Source: Gammaproteobacteria bacterium (GTDB taxonomy: Bacteria; Pseudomonadota; Gammaproteobacteria; SZUA-152). From it: 64,000 bases of DNA. Every line of letters begins with the position of its first letter. Position 1 is the stretch's first letter. Positions 12,036 through 20,026 of the stretch are shown here, piece by piece. Location of the stretch: assembly GCA_029882975.1 (NCBI GenBank), contig JAOUJW010000001.1, positions 310,001 to 374,000 of the forward strand. Reading direction: 5' to 3'. The position numbers and the translations under genes are program-made. A model generated the notes under the pieces. It was not told the DNA's origin. It worked only from the letters and a program-made list of their open reading frames with translations, and did not search any database.

Positions 12036-12460
12036 ACAGTTTCTCCAGTCGTTGTTCAGTAGTTGTTTGTGTTAGGTGTCAGTGAAAGCAGTGTTGTATG
12101 AAGTAGTAGTTAGGCGTAGTGGTAAGTGTAGTGCAAGGCGTGTTAAGTCACCCTTTGTTCGTTTGGTGGTCGCATTACCGGTACTGTAGATGTTGGTGGC
12201 TGTAGAGCGTTCGGCTGTTTGCAAGACACTCTGTGTTACCAGCATCGTTGAAACCCAGAAGTTGGTATTGTGTTAGGTGTCAGTGAAGCAGTAAAAGTTG
12301 TACCCATTGTGTTGTTGTTATTGTGTTAAGCAGTGCAGTTTTACCCATTGTGTTGTTGTTATTGTTGTTTGTGTTAGTGCAGTAGTGGTTTTATGCAGTA
12401 GGATGTCAGGTTTGTAGTACCGCCAATCCTAAAGCTGGCTAGTTTTTCATAGCTGTGCAG
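12036..12460 (+). ncRNA. G/T-rich, ORF-free transcribed tail or small RNA region
   Basis: About 425 bases with no credible reading frame, strongly enriched in G and T on the plus strand. It contains internal direct repeats: GTGTTAGGTGTCAGTGAA near 12069 and again near 12270, and TACCCATTGTGTTGTTGTTA at 12301 and 12342 (offset 41 bases). It ends exactly at a strong intrinsic terminator. The simplest reading is a very long 3' untranslated region of the membrane-protein gene or a separate noncoding RNA; no known RNA family is recognised. Confidence 0.4.
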
Positions 12461-12496
12461 CCTCTCACACTCCCCCTAGTGTGAGAGGTTTTTTTT
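12461..12496 (+). terminator. Strong intrinsic terminator
   Basis: CCTCTCACACT (12461-12471), loop CCCCCT, AGTGTGAGAGG (12478-12488), then eight T. The best plus-strand intrinsic terminator in the window; it closes the transcript that starts upstream of 11664 or within the G/T-rich stretch. Confidence 0.92.
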
Positions 12497-12616
12497 GTTT
12501 TTATGTATCGTTTCCCATCCACTCTTTGTATTTACCCCTTGATTTCCAATAGTATGTTATTGGGTTCTTTTATAAGGACTGGCTTTAAAAAACTAGGGAT
12601 GTTCTTTTCTATAGTT

Positions 12617-13484
12617 GGTCGCCGGGTCCCGCCCCGGCAGGCGGGTTCATTTTCTTTGTACGGACAAAGAAAACGAACCAAAGCTTCCGCTCCTGCTCAC
12701 GCCCCTTGCCTGCATCCATGCAGGCAAAAGAAAACCGCCCGTAAGCACGGAAAGCCTCTGCGCTTCTCGCTTCAATCTGGGAACTGGCCCGACAGGCCAT
12801 CCATGGCCTGACGAGCCAGTCGCGGCATCCTTGCCGCGACCCGTTGGGTTCACAGCTTGAAACTGCGATGCTCGACCGTGCTCCAACGGGATTCAGGGGT
12901 GCGTTCTGGAAGGCTACGGGAAGTATCTTGGTTTTTGTTGCGTTGAGATCTTTGGTGCAAACCAATGCTGAGCACCGGGATAAAAAGTTAGATTGTGACT
13001 GCCCTACTTGGAATGTGGCTCTCTTTTTTCTTAAGTGTTACCGATGTTTTTGGATTTACGTATAACCCATATTCGTGTTCATTTTTCAAATAGGGCGAGC
13101 ACAAACTTGCCAAAGTGACTGTTGCTTAATCTTGGCATGAACAAAAATACATCCGTATCACTAAATAGAGCTACTTAAACCAAACTCTCCGTACGCACCC
13201 CGAATCCCGTTGGAGCACGGCCGAGCATCGCAGGTTCAGACTGAGAAGCCAAAGGCCTGCGGCAAGGATGCCGCAGCTCACTCGTCAGGACAGGGATGAA
13301 GTCTAAAGACGAACAAATGGTGCAGATATTGAGGATCCAACTATTACTCGCCTGTCGAGTGAGTTCCCAGGCTGAGCCGAGAAGCGCAGGAGCCTTCCGT
13401 GCTTACGGGCGGTTTTCTTTTGGTTCGTTTTCTTTGTCCGTACAAAGAAAATGAACCCGTCTGCCGGGACGGGACCCGGCGACC
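12617..13484. mobile_element. 868-bp element with two long inverted arms, no transposase (MITE-like)
   Basis: Both ends are GGTCGCCGGGTCCCG in inverted orientation (12617 and 13484). The left arm, about 12617-12905, and right arm, about 13192-13484, pair over most of their length: shared blocks include CGGGTTCATTTTCTTTGTA, CGGACAAAGAAAACGAACC, AACCGCCCGTAAGCACGG, CTGGGAACT, GCGGCATCCTTGCC and GCTCCAACGGGATTC. The left arm has one extra block of about 44-57 bases (about 12684-12727) and both arms diverge locally. The 286-bp core (12906-13191) encodes no transposase or other recognisable protein. Short open frames across the arms are artefacts of the palindrome. Related repeats with an ACAAAGAAAACGAACCAAA core are scattered in gammaproteobacterial genomes, from general knowledge. 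No clear target duplication is seen. Confidence 0.7.
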
Positions 13485-13615
13485 ATCTTTAAAAGGGGTA
13501 CAATCAAATTGTTAAACCCCAATACCAATTTAGCAAATCCCAATTAAGAATTCCTTTTACTTGCTACTTTGGGCTGTATCAAAAACTGCCTAAACCTATA
13601 AAAGAGACCAAACTC

Positions 13616-14299
13616 TCAACCAAACCTCCCTGTCTTATCCGATGCAATCCGATCCGCCCAACGCGTTGTCTCGGGTAAACGATATTTACCCACGCAGGCC
13701 ATCACCACATCCAATGCCGCCGGCAAATCCACCTTATACCCCGCGGACACATATATGGGCTTAACCCCAACTCGGGTACGCAGAACCGCGCCGATGACCT
13801 CGTCACCATCCAGCAACTCCGCATAGCCCCCCTTCTCTACCGGCACCGGACCGTGCTCACCGATGAAGCGGGTTTTGGCTACGCCGATACTGGCTATCCC
13901 CGTAAGCACGCCCAAATGACTGGCAATACCCAGACGCCGCGGATGGGCGATGCCCTGGCCGTCGCACAGTAAAACATCCGGTGTCAGCGATAACTGCTCC
14001 AGGGCGGGTAAGATGGCCGGTATTTCCCGAAAGGACAAAAACCCCGGCACATAGGGAAAACAGGTTTCGCAGCGAGCGATGCGATACTCCAGCAATTCCA
14101 AATCGGGATAGCGCAAAACCGCTACCGCAGCGCGGGTAATGCGATAATTGTCTTCAAATCCCACATCCACACCGGCCACGGTCTGAAGCGGGCTGGGTAG
14201 CTGGTTTTGCAAAATCACCTGGGACCGCAGTTGCGACTGCATTTCCCTGGCCTGGGCTGTGGATACTTTCCAGTCTATGTCTTTCCAAGTTTTTTTCAT
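13616..14299 (-). CDS. nfi: Endonuclease V (deoxyinosine 3' endonuclease)
   Basis: 228 residues from the ATG at 14299 (TTAGG upstream); an in-frame ATG at 14311 lacks a ribosome site. Hallmarks of the family are present: AGVDVGFE near residue 42 with the first catalytic Asp, YVPGFLSFREIP around 85, and CDGQGIAHPRRLGIASHLG near 113 with the second catalytic Asp and the loop that reads deaminated bases; GVAKTRFIGE and PIYVSAGYKVDLPAA complete the core. The enzyme cuts one base 3' to deoxyinosine (and some uracil or mismatched sites) to start repair. It is divergent from uvrA, 126 bp apart, forming a small repair pair. Confidence 0.95.
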   Translation of the reverse strand: MKKTWKDIDWKVSTAQAREMQSQLRSQVILQNQLPSPLQTVAGVDVGFEDNYRITRAAVAVLRYPDLELLEYRIARCETCFPYVPGFLSFREIPAILPALEQLSLTPDVLLCDGQGIAHPRRLGIASHLGVLTGIASIGVAKTRFIGEHGPVPVEKGGYAELLDGDEVIGAVLRTRVGVKPIYVSAGYKVDLPAALDVVMACVGKYRLPETTRWADRIASDKTGRFG

Positions 14300-14425
14300 A
14301 AGCCTAACCATACCAATGTCAGCAGTTCGTCAGCAAGCATACGATCCAAGCAGCGCAAACCTGGGAACCGGACCTTAAAACCGGGTATCATGCCTGTCCT
14401 GAGAAAAACAAACCAAGAGCTGGCA

Positions 14426-17400
14426 ATGAGCAGTAACGACATCCGCATCAAAGGCGCGCGACAAAATAATCTGAAAAATATCGACCTGAACCTGCCGCTC
14501 AATGAGCTGACGGTGGTCACCGGGGTCAGTGGTTCCGGCAAGTCTTCTTTGGCCTTCGATACCATTTACGCCGAGGGCCAGCGTCGTTATGTGGAGACCT
14601 TTTCCCCCTACGCCCGTCAGTTCCTGGAGCGCATGGACAAACCCCAGGCCGATCGTATCGACGGCATCCCCCCGGCCATTGCCATTGACCAAACCAATCC
14701 CGTGCGCACATCCCGCTCCACCGTGGGCACCATGACGGAATTGAACGATCATCTCAAACTTTTATTCGCCCGTGTCAGCCATCTGCATTGCGGCGGTTGC
14801 GGTCAAGCAGTCAAGCAAGACAGCGCCCGCAGTATTTATGAGCATTTACGTCAACAGCTGCAACCAGATACGCGCATCGCCGTGGTGTTTAAGGTACCTA
14901 TTCCGGAGCAATTCAGCGTTGAAGAAATCCAACAATTTCTGGCGCAACAAGGCTACACCCGCTTTCTCAACGCAGACTCCGCTGACACAGTGAAATTGTT
15001 AGAAGTGGTGCAAGATCGCCTCAAACTCAACGCCGCCAATAAATCCCGTATTATAGAAGCCCTGGAAGCCGCCTTAAAACAAGGCCGTGGTTTTACCCAA
15101 GTGCATTTGTGGGACCAACCCAAAACAAAGCCTTTATTGTTTTCTTCTGACTTGCATTGTCCCGACTGCAATATTCATTACCAGGAAACCACCCCCAACA
15201 GTTTTTCGTTTAATTCTCCTCTGGGTGCCTGTGACACCTGCCGCGGCTTTGGCCGTACCATTGGTATTGATTACGACCTGGTAGTGCCGGACACCAATCT
15301 ATCTCTGGAACAGGGAGCCATCCGCCCCTGGCAAACCGAAAGCTATTACGAATGCCAGGTCGAGCTGTTACGCTTTGCCAAACAACGCGGCATTCCCATA
15401 GACACCCCTTGGAAAAAGCTCAACCGCAGCCAACAACAATGGGTGTTACAAGGAGAAGGCGATTTTGACGACAATGTCTGGTATGGCGTCTCCCGCTTTT
15501 TTGCCTGGCTGGAAACCAAAGCCTATAAAATGCATATTCGGGTGCTATTATCCAAATACCGCAATTACGCTCTGTGCCCCACCTGCGAAGGTGCCCGGCT
15601 AAAACCGGAATCTCTGCTGTGGCGTCTGGGCTCCAAAACCCTGGCGGACAAAGTGAGCAAGCAACGCAGCCGTCATCCCCAGAGTCAACTTAGCGACACT
15701 CAAGTGCGGCAGTTACCGGGGCTTAACCTCCATGACGTGCTGCTATTACCCGTGGAACAATGCCACACTTTTTTTCAACAACTCAAGTTGGGCAGCGGCG
15801 TGGACGAAGCCACGGATATTCTCTTGGGAGAGATTCGCTCGCGTCTGAATTTTTTGGTTAATGTGGGCCTAGCTTATCTGACCTTGGATCGCCAGTCGCG
15901 CACCTTAAGCGGGGGTGAGGTACAACGGATTAACTTAACCACCGCCTTGGGCACGTCTTTAGTCAACACCCTGTTCGTATTGGACGAACCCAGCATTGGC
16001 CTGCACCCTCGCGACATGCAGCGCATTATTGAAGTCATGCAACAACTGAAACAAGCCGGGAATACCCTGTTGGTGGTGGAGCACGACCCGCAAATTATGT
16101 TCTGCGCCGATCGGCTCATCGACATGGGGCCGGGCCCCGGTGACCAAGGTGGCCGTATCGTGTTTAATGGAGCACCGGATAAAATCCTGCGCAACAAACG
16201 CAGCTTGACCGGACGTTATTTAAACGGCGAACTGAGCGTCAGCCCCGAATCCAACCAGCGGAGTAACTCCGGTAAAACACAGCTAGACATACTGGGGGCA
16301 CAACAACACAATCTTAAAAATCTGGATGTGTCCATACCTTTAGGACAACTGGTGTGCCTCTGTGGTGTCAGCGGTTCGGGCAAATCCACTTTAGTACACG
16401 ACATCCTTTACCTGGGCTTACGTAAACTCAAAAACAAACCCATTGAAGCGCCGGGCCAACACAAAAAAATCAGCGGCCACCAACACATTGGCGAGGTTAT
16501 CATGGTGGACCAATCCCCCATTGGCAAAACCACTCGCAGCAACCCCGCCAGTTACGTGGGCGCCCTAAACGGTATTCGCAAACTGTTTGCCACCGAACCT
16601 TTGTCCCAGGAACGGGGGTATACACCCGGCACCTTTAGTTTTAATTCCGGTAACGGTCGCTGCCCTACCTGCAGCGGTAACGGTTTTGAACATGTAGAGA
16701 TGCAGTTTCTCAGTGACGTGTATTTACGTTGCCCCGACTGTGACGGCAAGCGTTTTCGCGATGAAGTGCTGGAAGTAAAACTCTTTCCGCAAAGCCGTAA
16801 TAAAAGCGCTCAGACTCATGCTCTTTCAATCGCCGATGTACTGGAACTGACGGTGGCACAGGCGCTACAGGTGTTTCAAGACTACGACGAGATCCTCAAT
16901 GCCCTGCGACCCTTAAGCGCCGTGGGCCTGGACTATCTGGCCCTGGGACAAGCGGTACCCACCTTAAGCGGCGGCGAATCGCAACGTTTAAAACTGGCAG
17001 GACACCTGGCCAAACAAAAACAAATCCGCGGCGATGACAAGCCCCATTTGTTTTTGTTTGACGAACCCACCACCGGCCTGCACTTCAGTGATATAAAAAA
17101 ATTGCTGGGGGCGTTTGACGAATTGATCCAGGCCGGCCACTCCCTGCTCATTATTGAACACAACCTGGATGTGATTCGCCATAGCGACTGGCTCATTGAA
17201 CTGGGCCCGGAAGGCGGTGCCGCCGGAGGCAAACAGGTGTTTTGCGGCACGCCGGAGCAAATCCTCAAACACAAAACCAGTCATACCGGCCAGGCGCTGT
17301 ATCAATACCAAAAAGCTTTGGCAAACAGTCAATCTTGGGGCAAAACCAATAAAGCAAAAAACAAGTCGGCTCGAAAAACGGCTCAGGGCAACAGCATCAA

Positions 17401-20026
17401 TATTCATAACGCCAAGGAACACAATCTGCGCAATGTGGACATACATATCCCCAGAGAGAAGTTTACCGTCATCACCGGCGTCAGCGGCAGCGGTAAAAGC
17501 ACGGTTGCCTTTGACATTCTGTTTGCCGAAGGTCAACGTCGCTATCTGGAATCACTCAATGCTTATGCACGCCAGTTTGTACAGCCGTCGGCACGGCCGG
17601 AAGTGGATGCCGTCTATGGCATCCCCCCCACGGTAGCGATTGAACAACGCACCAGCCGTGGCGGCCGCAAAAGTACCGTGGCCACCATGACAGAAATCCA
17701 ACATTTTCTGCGTTTGTTGTTTGTTAAATTAGGCACCCAACACTGTCCCGATTGCCACTGCCCCATTGAACCCCAATCGGAACAAAGTATTTTCAACCAC
17801 ATCATGAAGCGTTTTCGCAATAAAAAGATTCATTTACTGGCACCGCTGGTCAGTGAACGCAAAGGTTACTACACGGACTTAGCCAAATGGGCTGCGGCTA
17901 AAGGCTTTCCATTCTTACGAGTGAACCGGGAATTTATCCCTACCGATCCCTGGCCGCGCTTAGACCGCTATAAGGAACACAATATTGAATGCCCCTCAGA
18001 GCTGATCCACGTCAGCGCCAATAAGGAAGCCGAACTGCAGAGCAACTTAGAGCAATTGCTGGCCATCGGCAAAGGCGTGGTGATGGTCTTGTCCGCTGGG
18101 CGTACGACCTTATTCTCCACACAGCGAGCCTGCCCTCAATGCGGCCTCAGCTTCAATGAACCGGACCCACGCCAGTTTTCCTTTAACTCCAAGCTGGGCT
18201 GGTGTCAGCATTGCCAGGGCAGTGGTTGCGAACCTGTGGAGTCCGAACTGGAAGCGGAGACCGACACGGTCTTGGACCTAAGCTATCATGAAGACTGGGA
18301 CCAGGAGCGCAATAGTGATGACGTTTGCAGCCATTGCCACGGCGCACGACTTAACCCGGAAACACTGGCAGTCACCTATAAAAACCGCTCCATTGCCGAT
18401 TTTAATCGTATGACCATCGCTACGTCCTCGCGTTATTTCGACAACATCAAACTCAATGCCCGCGAAAGCATCATTGCGCGGGATATTATCGTGGAGCTTA
18501 AATCCCGCTTGGCCTTTTTACAGCATGTGGGCTTGTCTTACATGGGCTTGGACCGCTCTGCACCCTCGCTCAGTGGAGGCGAAGCACAACGCATTCGCCT
18601 GGCATCGCAACTGGGATCCAATCTCAGAGGTGTATGTTACATCCTGGACGAACCCACTATCGGTCTGCACCCGCGCGATAACGCCATGTTGTTGAGCACT
18701 TTAAAACAACTGCAAACCCAGGGTAATACAGTGGTGGTGGTGGAACATGACGAAGACACCATTCGCAGCGCCGAACACATTGTGGACCTGGGACCGGGAG
18801 CCGGAGTACAAGGGGGACATGTACTGGTTAACGGTTCCGTGGCACAACTCAAACGTCATAAGCAATCCAAAACCGGCTTGTTTCTGGCCAAACCGCTACA
18901 ACACCCCATTATGCCGCGACGGGAAACCCAGCTGCGCGGCAAACACGCAACAGCGGCAATTGAGGTACAACAAGCGACGTTAAACAATTTGAAAAAACTC
19001 AACGTCAGCCTGCCCTTGAACCGCCTGGTGTGCATCAGCGGCGTCAGCGGCAGCGGCAAAAGCACTTTGATTCGGCGCATTGTTTACGAGAACTTAAAAG
19101 CGCATGTGGGTAAAACGAATGCAAAGAAACGCACTTCGTCTAAAAAAACAGAATTCTTGGGGTGTCACTCCTTATCCGGTTGGGAATCCATCGACCGCAT
19201 ACTAGAAGTAGACCAGACCCCCATCGGCAAAACCCCTCGTTCCTGCCCAGCCACGTACATCGGTTTGTGGGACCACATTCGCCGCCTTTACGCCAATACC
19301 AATGAGGCCCGCATTCGCGCTTATGATGCGGGGCGTTTTTCTTTTAACGTCAAAGAAGGACGTTGTGATGCCTGTGACGGTCAGGGTTATCGCAAAATAG
19401 AAATGAACTTTTTACCTGATGTCAAAGTAGCCTGCGATGTGTGCAAAGGTGCACGTTTTAATTCGGAAACTACAGCGGTGTTATACAAAGGCAAAAGCAT
19501 AGCCGATGTATTGGCCATGGACATCGATGCCGCCTGCGAATTTTTCAGCGCCCACAGCTATATTCACCATGCCCTGCAACTGTTACAAGACGTGGGCCTG
19601 GGCTATTTAACCCTGGGACAACAAAGCCCCACCTTAAGCGGAGGCGAAGCGCAACGCATTAAACTGGTATCGGAGTTGGCCAAAGCCCGGCCCTCGGAAG
19701 ACCTTCGCCGCCGCAAAGCACCGCATACTTTGTATGTATTGGATGAGCCCACCGTGGGCTTGCACATGGCGGATGTGGAAAAACTGATTCGGGTACTGCA
19801 CCGCTTGGTGGATGCAGGCAACAGCGTCTTTGTCATTGAACACAACCTGGACGTGATCGCCGAAGCCGACTGGCTCCTGGATATGGGACCGGAAGGTGGC
19901 GACAAAGGCGGAAAGATCTGCGCCATGGGCACCCCAGAGCAAGTGGCACAACAAGCCAAATCCAAAAAATCCATCACCGCCCCCCTATTGAAGCAATTTC
20001 TGCAGCAGCGAAAACCGGCCCGGTGA
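14426..20026 (+). CDS. uvrA: Tandem double-length UvrA, excinuclease ABC subunit A
   Basis: 1866 residues from the ATG at 14426; earlier in-frame codons reach into the divergent nfi gene and lack UvrA homology. The protein is two complete UvrA units in one chain, so it has four ABC modules: Walker A motifs GVSGSGKS near residues 36, 646, 1018 and 1537, and LSGGE signatures near 493, 846, 1381 and 1735. Zinc-binding CxxC pairs recur (HCGGCGQ, CPDCNIHY, CPTCSGNG/CPDCDGKR in the first half; HCPDCHCP, CPQCGLSF, CDACDGQG/CDVCKGAR in the second). Normal UvrA is about 940 residues and works as a dimer; here both protomers are covalently joined. Single-unit uvrA may exist elsewhere. Role: damage recognition for nucleotide excision repair with UvrB and UvrC, which are not in the window. 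Confidence 0.93.
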   Translation: MSSNDIRIKGARQNNLKNIDLNLPLNELTVVTGVSGSGKSSLAFDTIYAEGQRRYVETFSPYARQFLERMDKPQADRIDGIPPAIAIDQTNPVRTSRSTVGTMTELNDHLKLLFARVSHLHCGGCGQAVKQDSARSIYEHLRQQLQPDTRIAVVFKVPIPEQFSVEEIQQFLAQQGYTRFLNADSADTVKLLEVVQDRLKLNAANKSRIIEALEAALKQGRGFTQVHLWDQPKTKPLLFSSDLHCPDCNIHYQETTPNSFSFNSPLGACDTCRGFGRTIGIDYDLVVPDTNLSLEQGAIRPWQTESYYECQVELLRFAKQRGIPIDTPWKKLNRSQQQWVLQGEGDFDDNVWYGVSRFFAWLETKAYKMHIRVLLSKYRNYALCPTCEGARLKPESLLWRLGSKTLADKVSKQRSRHPQSQLSDTQVRQLPGLNLHDVLLLPVEQCHTFFQQLKLGSGVDEATDILLGEIRSRLNFLVNVGLAYLTLDRQSRTLSGGEVQRINLTTALGTSLVNTLFVLDEPSIGLHPRDMQRIIEVMQQLKQAGNTLLVVEHDPQIMFCADRLIDMGPGPGDQGGRIVFNGAPDKILRNKRSLTGRYLNGELSVSPESNQRSNSGKTQLDILGAQQHNLKNLDVSIPLGQLVCLCGVSGSGKSTLVHDILYLGLRKLKNKPIEAPGQHKKISGHQHIGEVIMVDQSPIGKTTRSNPASYVGALNGIRKLFATEPLSQERGYTPGTFSFNSGNGRCPTCSGNGFEHVEMQFLSDVYLRCPDCDGKRFRDEVLEVKLFPQSRNKSAQTHALSIADVLELTVAQALQVFQDYDEILNALRPLSAVGLDYLALGQAVPTLSGGESQRLKLAGHLAKQKQIRGDDKPHLFLFDEPTTGLHFSDIKKLLGAFDELIQAGHSLLIIEHNLDVIRHSDWLIELGPEGGAAGGKQVFCGTPEQILKHKTSHTGQALYQYQKALANSQSWGKTNKAKNKSARKTAQGNSINIHNAKEHNLRNVDIHIPREKFTVITGVSGSGKSTVAFDILFAEGQRRYLESLNAYARQFVQPSARPEVDAVYGIPPTVAIEQRTSRGGRKSTVATMTEIQHFLRLLFVKLGTQHCPDCHCPIEPQSEQSIFNHIMKRFRNKKIHLLAPLVSERKGYYTDLAKWAAAKGFPFLRVNREFIPTDPWPRLDRYKEHNIECPSELIHVSANKEAELQSNLEQLLAIGKGVVMVLSAGRTTLFSTQRACPQCGLSFNEPDPRQFSFNSKLGWCQHCQGSGCEPVESELEAETDTVLDLSYHEDWDQERNSDDVCSHCHGARLNPETLAVTYKNRSIADFNRMTIATSSRYFDNIKLNARESIIARDIIVELKSRLAFLQHVGLSYMGLDRSAPSLSGGEAQRIRLASQLGSNLRGVCYILDEPTIGLHPRDNAMLLSTLKQLQTQGNTVVVVEHDEDTIRSAEHIVDLGPGAGVQGGHVLVNGSVAQLKRHKQSKTGLFLAKPLQHPIMPRRETQLRGKHATAAIEVQQATLNNLKKLNVSLPLNRLVCISGVSGSGKSTLIRRIVYENLKAHVGKTNAKKRTSSKKTEFLGCHSLSGWESIDRILEVDQTPIGKTPRSCPATYIGLWDHIRRLYANTNEARIRAYDAGRFSFNVKEGRCDACDGQGYRKIEMNFLPDVKVACDVCKGARFNSETTAVLYKGKSIADVLAMDIDAACEFFSAHSYIHHALQLLQDVGLGYLTLGQQSPTLSGGEAQRIKLVSELAKARPSEDLRRRKAPHTLYVLDEPTVGLHMADVEKLIRVLHRLVDAGNSVFVIEHNLDVIAEADWLLDMGPEGGDKGGKICAMGTPEQVAQQAKSKKSITAPLLKQFLQQRKPAR

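Follow-up and report, generated by a model that had tools for sequence, protein, structure and literature searches.

What is an 868-bp element that has two long inverted arms and encodes no transposase? It lies at 12617-13484 of a 64,000-nucleotide stretch of a gammaproteobacterial genome, which we will call the window. An earlier note on this DNA had described arms of about 290 bp around a 286-bp core, and had suggested that the whole element could fold into a giant hairpin. The arms are indeed 289 and 292 bp long, and the core measures 287 bp. Three inverted blocks make up the arms: 12607-12682 pairs with 13419-13494 (93% complementary), 12725-12797 pairs with 13350-13422 (86%), and 12798-12898 pairs with 13198-13298 (83%). 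These blocks are the only inverted repeats of at least 30 nt in the 64-kb window that have a partner at most 4 kb away. In a self-BLAST of the 3.9-kb locus, the arm pair has E = 7e-31. The element ends in the expected termini, GGTCGCCGGG and CCCGGCGACC (Table 1).

No transposase gene lies inside the element, as had been claimed: the core has no long open reading frame, and stop-to-stop frames that lie wholly inside it are at most 45 codons long. Its GC content is 40%, as compared to 61% and 57% for the arms and 49% for the window. We found no sigma70-like promoter in 12400-13650. The earlier note had also reported one arm that was extended by an insertion. The left arm is indeed extended by 46 nt at about 12680-12725; the inserted block is a dispersed repeat that is found separately elsewhere. 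The right arm has an extra block of its own, of about 51 nt (13300-13350), which had been missed. With an extra block in each arm and no cargo ORF, the window copy is probably ageing.

Table 1. Features of the element, in window coordinates.
Feature	Position	Strand	Evidence
Left arm	12617..12905	- (outward sense RNA)	Inverted blocks; fold z -6.9; TwoAYGGAY match 12738-12888 (-)
Left terminal GC hairpin with GGTCGCCGGG terminus	12617..12642	-	Sequence; RNA fold
Left distal module; S2 (12644-12679) is whole, but the insert has displaced the side with the third strand	12644..12694	-	RNA model R1, 52.3 bits
Inserted 46-bp dispersed repeat, between left-arm third strand and hairpin	12680..12725	-	Copies in own and other genomes
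GCCTGC-ATGGAT-GCAGGC hairpin inside the 46-bp insert	12708-12725	-	Sequence
Left-arm third-strand tract TTTTCTTTT	12726..12734	-	Sequence; triple test
Hairpin AGGCC-ATGGAT-GGCCT, ANGGAY loop	12794..12809	-	Sequence; Rfam alignment; RNA fold
Hairpin TCGCGGC-AAGGAT-GCCGCGA, ANGGAY-like loop	12820..12839	-	Sequence; Rfam alignment; RNA fold
Core, 287 bp, AT-rich, without ORF	12906..13192	.	ORF, promoter and composition checks
Right arm	13193..13484	+ (outward sense RNA)	Inverted blocks; fold z -4.9
Hairpin CTGCGGC-AAGGAT-GCCGCAG, ANGGAY-like loop	13257..13276	+	Sequence; RNA fold
Second ANGGAY-like site (AGGGAT, 13292-13297), stem split by the ~51-nt block	13290..13350	+	Arm comparison
Right distal module: S1 side, third strand UUUCUUUU (13414-13421), S2 and apical loop (13422-13457)	13407..13457	+	RNA model R1, 68.2 bits, E 5.1e-13; row 1 of alignment A1
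Right terminal GC hairpin ending CCCGGCGACC	13458..13484	+	Sequence; RNA fold

Two other features of the surrounding DNA caught our eye. Positions 12040-12500 are rich in TGTT, of low complexity, and internally repeated in direct orientation, and they end in a strong terminator-like hairpin (12459-12490). A 1939-aa ORF (14207-20026) seems, by eye, to include two complete UvrA-like halves in tandem.

Do the arms fold with each other or on their own? As outward RNA, each arm folds better than 200/200 dinucleotide shuffles (Table 1). Across 23 two-armed elements, however, the arms within one element are just 53-89% identical, and they often belong to different classes of the base triples described below. 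We therefore rejected the giant hairpin as the conserved structure; each arm keeps its own fold.

Distal to its hairpins, an arm tends to have a pyrimidine tract and then a U-A-rich hairpin, in which the purine strand is a mirror image of the tract. Covariation at the level of the family supports an H-type pseudoknot of 51 nt, with a helix of base triples, as the structure of this distal module. A class-wide pattern that let a G move independently in the hairpin and in the tract matched 33 of 369 genomes. Among the 92 matches listed, counted by hand, hairpin and tract were of one concordant class in 60 and of the other in 30 (one of these, in G164, is probably a chance match); two were neutral and none were discordant.

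For alignment A1, we kept 60 of 106 hits, namely those with a spacer of 2, a loop of 6, and no more than 4 mismatches, and we used each distinct sequence once. In these 60 modules, the apical loop can pair with bases upstream of the tract to form helix S1: 80.4% of cells are paired, and all four pairs show changes on both sides. S2 is paired in 96.1%. The covariation score was 0.330; shuffles gave 0.134 (0/500), and sliding gave 0.06-0.11. Base triples were in register at 468 of 480 positions; sliding reduced this to 198-302, and the shuffled maximum was 443. Across the family, the third strand runs parallel to the purine strand and matches it, also where the C/G position moves. In the right arm of the window, S1 needs a register shifted by 1 nt, with three Watson-Crick pairs and one G.U (by eye).

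The scan templates left tract and hairpin types unlinked. Because the templates biased the sampling, we used a model that is blind to both S1 and the triples to collect new modules. The result was replicated in 42 unique new modules, with 135/168 S1 positions paired and 327/336 triples in register.

Which strand is structured? The pair next to S2 is C-G in 38 modules, G.U in 36, and A.C or C.A in just 2. Since G.U is far above A.C or C.A, the outward strand is the structured strand. This asymmetry favours RNA, while single-stranded DNA is also compatible with it and shared ancestry inflates the counts.

As a separate observation, the arms of L084, L079, and L070 are 85-89% identical overall, yet the two arms differ in their stem and triple class. 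It is as if two knots were kept distinct by selection.

Besides the pseudoknot, the arms of the window element carry several GGA motifs in hairpin loops. The left arm of the window has three ANGGAU hairpins, including the one in the insert, while the right arm has one intact hairpin and one site with a split stem. Before making arm-level counts, we left out a duplicate locus (L063) and five scan hits that we judged to be false (one in L045 and those in L017, L036, L068, and L081). In 76 non-redundant arms, GGA is present in 46 of 134 hairpin loops, versus 30 of 618 loops in the flanks (Fisher p 5e-19). TCC is not enriched (6/134 versus 49/618, Fisher p 0.20). In a second set of 46 non-redundant arms, GGA was in 25/82 arm loops and 12/496 flank loops. 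At least one GGA-loop hairpin is found in 34 of the 76 arms, and our crude caller detected none in the other 42; 13 of the 76 carry another long hairpin motif. The same arm plan, with different stems, is seen in the relatives L046, L039, and L045 and in four arms from G557.

In an Rfam scan, positions 12738-12888 (-) of the left arm match the full model of TwoAYGGAY (RF01731) with 39.0 bits (E 1.6e-4), which is less than the gathering score of 43. The two loops in this alignment are AAGGAU and AUGGAU, and only the latter fits AYGGAY exactly. Given the score below threshold and the one loop that is not AYGGAY, we did not file the window arms as TwoAYGGAY members; at most, they work like that family. 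A relative, the arm at L093, scores 59.1 bits. The gathering score is also reached in G262 (which has 20 matches), G048, and G386.

Of 31 genomes with the pseudoknot module, 9 have a TwoAYGGAY match (E <= 0.01), as does 1 of 31 genomes without the module. That one genome, G048, has 14 dispersed matches. Among the 10 loci that we inspected there, both orientations were represented and we found no pseudoknot module beside the match (L159, L169, L172, L174, L176, L178, L180, L182, L184, and L186). This implies that the GGA domain can be separated from the pseudoknot.

What might bind the loops? The ANGGA(Y) loops of the arms resemble the consensus site of CsrA, in its SELEX form. The genome with the window encodes CsrA, and so do 42 of 45 genomes with or without arms, which makes the co-occurrence uninformative. 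On contig C1 of the same genome, any enrichment of ANGGAY hairpins is weak (6/513, versus 1-3 in Markov sequences). CsrA binding was proposed earlier for TwoAYGGAY (PMC4333381), and RsmW is described as a validated RsmA binder (PMC4950607). RsmW belongs to the same Rfam clan as TwoAYGGAY (CL00106), and it matches L039 weakly.

We then considered how widespread these elements are. The module model matches 88 of 398 sampled Pseudomonadota genomes (E <= 0.001, with rough E-values), and two-armed relatives lie at unrelated sites in many genomes. Stricter patterns find fewer: the strict class-wide pattern matched 2/369 genomes, and a strict 29-letter pattern found 5 stretches from 3 MAGs across genome contigs. 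Plasmids contained pieces only, a pattern scan of viral contigs gave 0 matches, and the phage collection had no match. In the limited set of papers that we searched, six 15-letter motif strings were absent, and we found no description of the module or of the paired element. The element is a member of a widespread and apparently undescribed family of bacterial repeats.

The earlier note had proposed a search of the genome for further copies. There are indeed related pieces. A fragment of an arm lies at C46:21157-21217, and the motif model picked out one more distal module, at C21:18520-18566. The C21 module is part of a mini-element of 98 bp, which has matching termini (GGTTGCCGGG...CCCGGCAAAC) and is flanked by genes that seem, by eye, to be convergent. 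A second two-armed copy was not found. The mini-element (L219, 1473-1570) is itself nested in an imperfect inverted repeat of about 55 bp per side, so there may have been an older, larger palindrome around it.

The 46-bp block of the left arm is an independent dispersed repeat. Separate copies are present at 4 other places in the same genome, and in relatives the block is sometimes in tandem. It is also found on Pseudoalteromonas and Saccharobesus replicons. We noticed that this repeat, with its one ANGGAY hairpin, is common to the window family and Alteromonadales replicons (L005, L007, L008, L009, L068, and L069).

Most paired arms point outward. In the first 84 loci, we counted 21 outward, 2 inward, and 1 same-direction pairs, some of them doubtful: one outward pair at L045 rests on a false hit (the true L045 pair is also outward), and the L078 pair (218 bp) is doubtful. 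In a model-based sample, 21 of 24 pairs within 5 kb were outward, 2 were in the same direction, and 1 was inward; this count took 93 of the hits listed, and the rest, by eye, added two outward pairs (one being the window) and one same-direction pair. Among six copies from G262, left arms are 83-93% identical to each other and right arms 65-94%, as compared to 55-63% between left and right. The left and right types are co-inherited, so the arm pair appears to be inherited as a unit, with variable cores.

In larger relatives, the arms enclose genes for defence or weapons. L225 encloses a KAP NTPase (PF07693, 2.9e-43; PADLOC PDC-S20, 1.2e-94), and L224 encloses a HEPN-domain protein (1.1e-7). L223 encloses a Tae4 amidase effector (4.2e-25), a PAAR protein (1.3e-9), and a DUF6402 protein (2.1e-34), that is, T6SS Tae4 with PAAR. 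L045, L084, L133, L027, and L107 enclose lipoprotein-like ORFs (judged from their N-termini) and unassigned ORFs. Six small cargo ORFs had no match in Pfam or PADLOC.

With its two arms, the window element belongs to a dispersed family of elements in Gammaproteobacteria, and we propose that the arms act as outward transcripts, i.e., as RNA. From the core outward, each arm would form a multibranch domain that presents ANGGA(Y)-loop hairpins, then the H-type pseudoknot, and then the terminal GC hairpin. In the pseudoknot, a U-rich strand would lie in the groove of the U-A-rich stem as a triple helix. We predict that the loops bind CsrA, as an Rsm-type decoy or as a docking site, and that the triple-helix knot blocks 3' exonucleases and so stabilises the transcript. 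The inverted arm pair would spread as one unit, and it can enclose accessory genes. Our data show the anatomy, the covariation, the strand asymmetry, the dispersal, the outward geometry, and the cargo, whereas transcription, CsrA binding, stabilisation, and the mode of movement are inferred. Several results speak against this reading: no sigma70-like promoter was found, the TwoAYGGAY score of the window is below threshold, many arms have no GGA loop that our caller could detect, single arms have no preferred orientation relative to neighbouring genes, and S1 of the right arm needs the shifted register. Taken whole, with RNA-acting arms, CsrA-binding loops, and a stabilising knot, this reading has, in our judgment, about an even chance of being correct. 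A bolder version is possible, but we are doubtful of it: the elements might be mobile cassettes of a new class that is widespread in Gammaproteobacteria. Their inverted ends would be outward structured RNA genes, their cargo would be anti-phage or interbacterial weapon genes, and they would tune the host's global regulator CsrA. The ends of such cassettes would be CsrA-decoy domains capped by a triple-helix pseudoknot, rather than the usual transposon ends, and would in themselves be regulatory RNAs.

The strongest rival is that these are DNA-only mobile elements: non-autonomous and MITE-like, with ends that fold as single-stranded DNA and a transposase or recombinase that acts in trans, without involvement of RNA or CsrA. 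Such an element would explain why many copies are dispersed at unrelated sites with conserved ends and variable cores, the co-inherited arm types in G262, the capture of cargo, and a 98-bp mini-element with both termini (at G000:C21). MITEs and REP/BIME are likewise short, dispersed, non-coding inverted repeats without a transposase, and multiple dispersed copies with shared termini, which is expected of MITEs, are seen at the level of the family. But the arms are longer (about 200-300 bp), their structure is strand-specific, and relatives carry cargo. Also, a simple check by eye found no direct repeat, and hence no target duplication, at the ends of the copies inspected, and no transposase was recognised in any core listed. 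Both the strong asymmetry of G.U over A.C and the ANGGA loops, which resemble the site of an RNA-binding protein, point to RNA instead. We consider the DNA-only explanation unlikely.

The next rival comes from the gene context. Two-armed elements lie between convergent genes at 11/15 and 8/13 loci, or 19/28 in all, as compared to 47/169 (28%) at the same loci; this used a crude gene caller and required both flanks to be called, and the 19 include at least one error: at L223, the right neighbour looks, by eye, like an aminotransferase gene on the + strand. The window copy and, by eye, the C21 mini-element also sit between convergent genes. The element might therefore be a bidirectional 3'-end or terminator structure, which stops or stabilises the transcripts of both neighbours. 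We think this is quite improbable: the arm hairpins are not followed by a U tract in either neighbour's reading direction, complementarity between the arms of one element is not kept, and single arms show no bias towards convergent sites (11/47). Selection against insertion in promoters would also lead to enrichment at convergent sites.

A related idea, that arms lie in the sense orientation in 3' UTRs, was rejected, as the gene upstream of a single arm is in the same direction in 22 cases and in the opposite direction in 25. Separately, L226 (G557:C1:2076500-2080700) has two arms that face the same way, one of them behind a TonB-receptor-like gene and the other behind a CobO-like gene (by eye). 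Because each arm follows a gene, these arms might be 3'-UTR elements.

The last alternative, a locally evolved palindrome without relatives, fits the lone two-armed copy in this genome but has next to no chance of being correct, as homologous distal modules occur in the 88 genomes and an arm fragment and a mini-element lie on C46 and C21. The earlier note would have favoured such a palindrome if this genome and all its relatives had one copy each, always at one shared site. That is not what we found: the sister species G001 has endonuclease V with no element nearby, and two-armed relatives sit at other sites.

How does an element with RNA-acting arms, which is the reading that we prefer, compare to known systems? 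Like TwoAYGGAY, the left arm of the window and several relatives have two GGA-hexaloop hairpins inside an outer stem. Unlike them, the Rfam model as aligned has no pseudoknot, triple helix, or inverted pairing, and, as described above, the window falls below its threshold with one loop that is AAGGAU. The RNAs that sequester CsrA or RsmA (CsrB, RsmX/Y/Z, RsmW, and RsmU) also present GGA in several hairpin loops each, but the arms of the window family are dispersed, usually paired, and outward, and CsrA binding is predicted here. By contrast, RsmW and RsmU are 3'-UTR products that come from a single locus (PMC4950607, PMC7694677).

Telomerase RNA, the SAM-II riboswitch, and ENE elements include H-type pseudoknots with major-groove triples. 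Our module shares their topology, with S1, a U-rich loop 1, S2, and U.A-U triples. The difference is that the pseudoknots described here are the paired ends of dispersed bacterial elements. A dispersed intergenic motif that can form an intramolecular triplex has been reported before, as TM-ECO (PMC4666352). It measures about 37 nt and is a purine motif that is rich in G/C. In comparison, our module is, by eye, an A/T-rich pyrimidine motif (U.A-U/C.G-C) with the pseudoknot helix S1.

These results give TwoAYGGAY, an orphan RNA, a genomic setting, namely the arms of dispersed, paired, cargo-carrying elements. They also add a triple-helix pseudoknot that is supported by covariation. The elements would also offer a handle with which to search for cargo islands that contain KAP, HEPN, or T6SS effector genes. 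And if the arms are transcribed, then a dispersed family of elements would feed decoys into Csr/Rsm, which is among the best known regulatory systems of bacteria.
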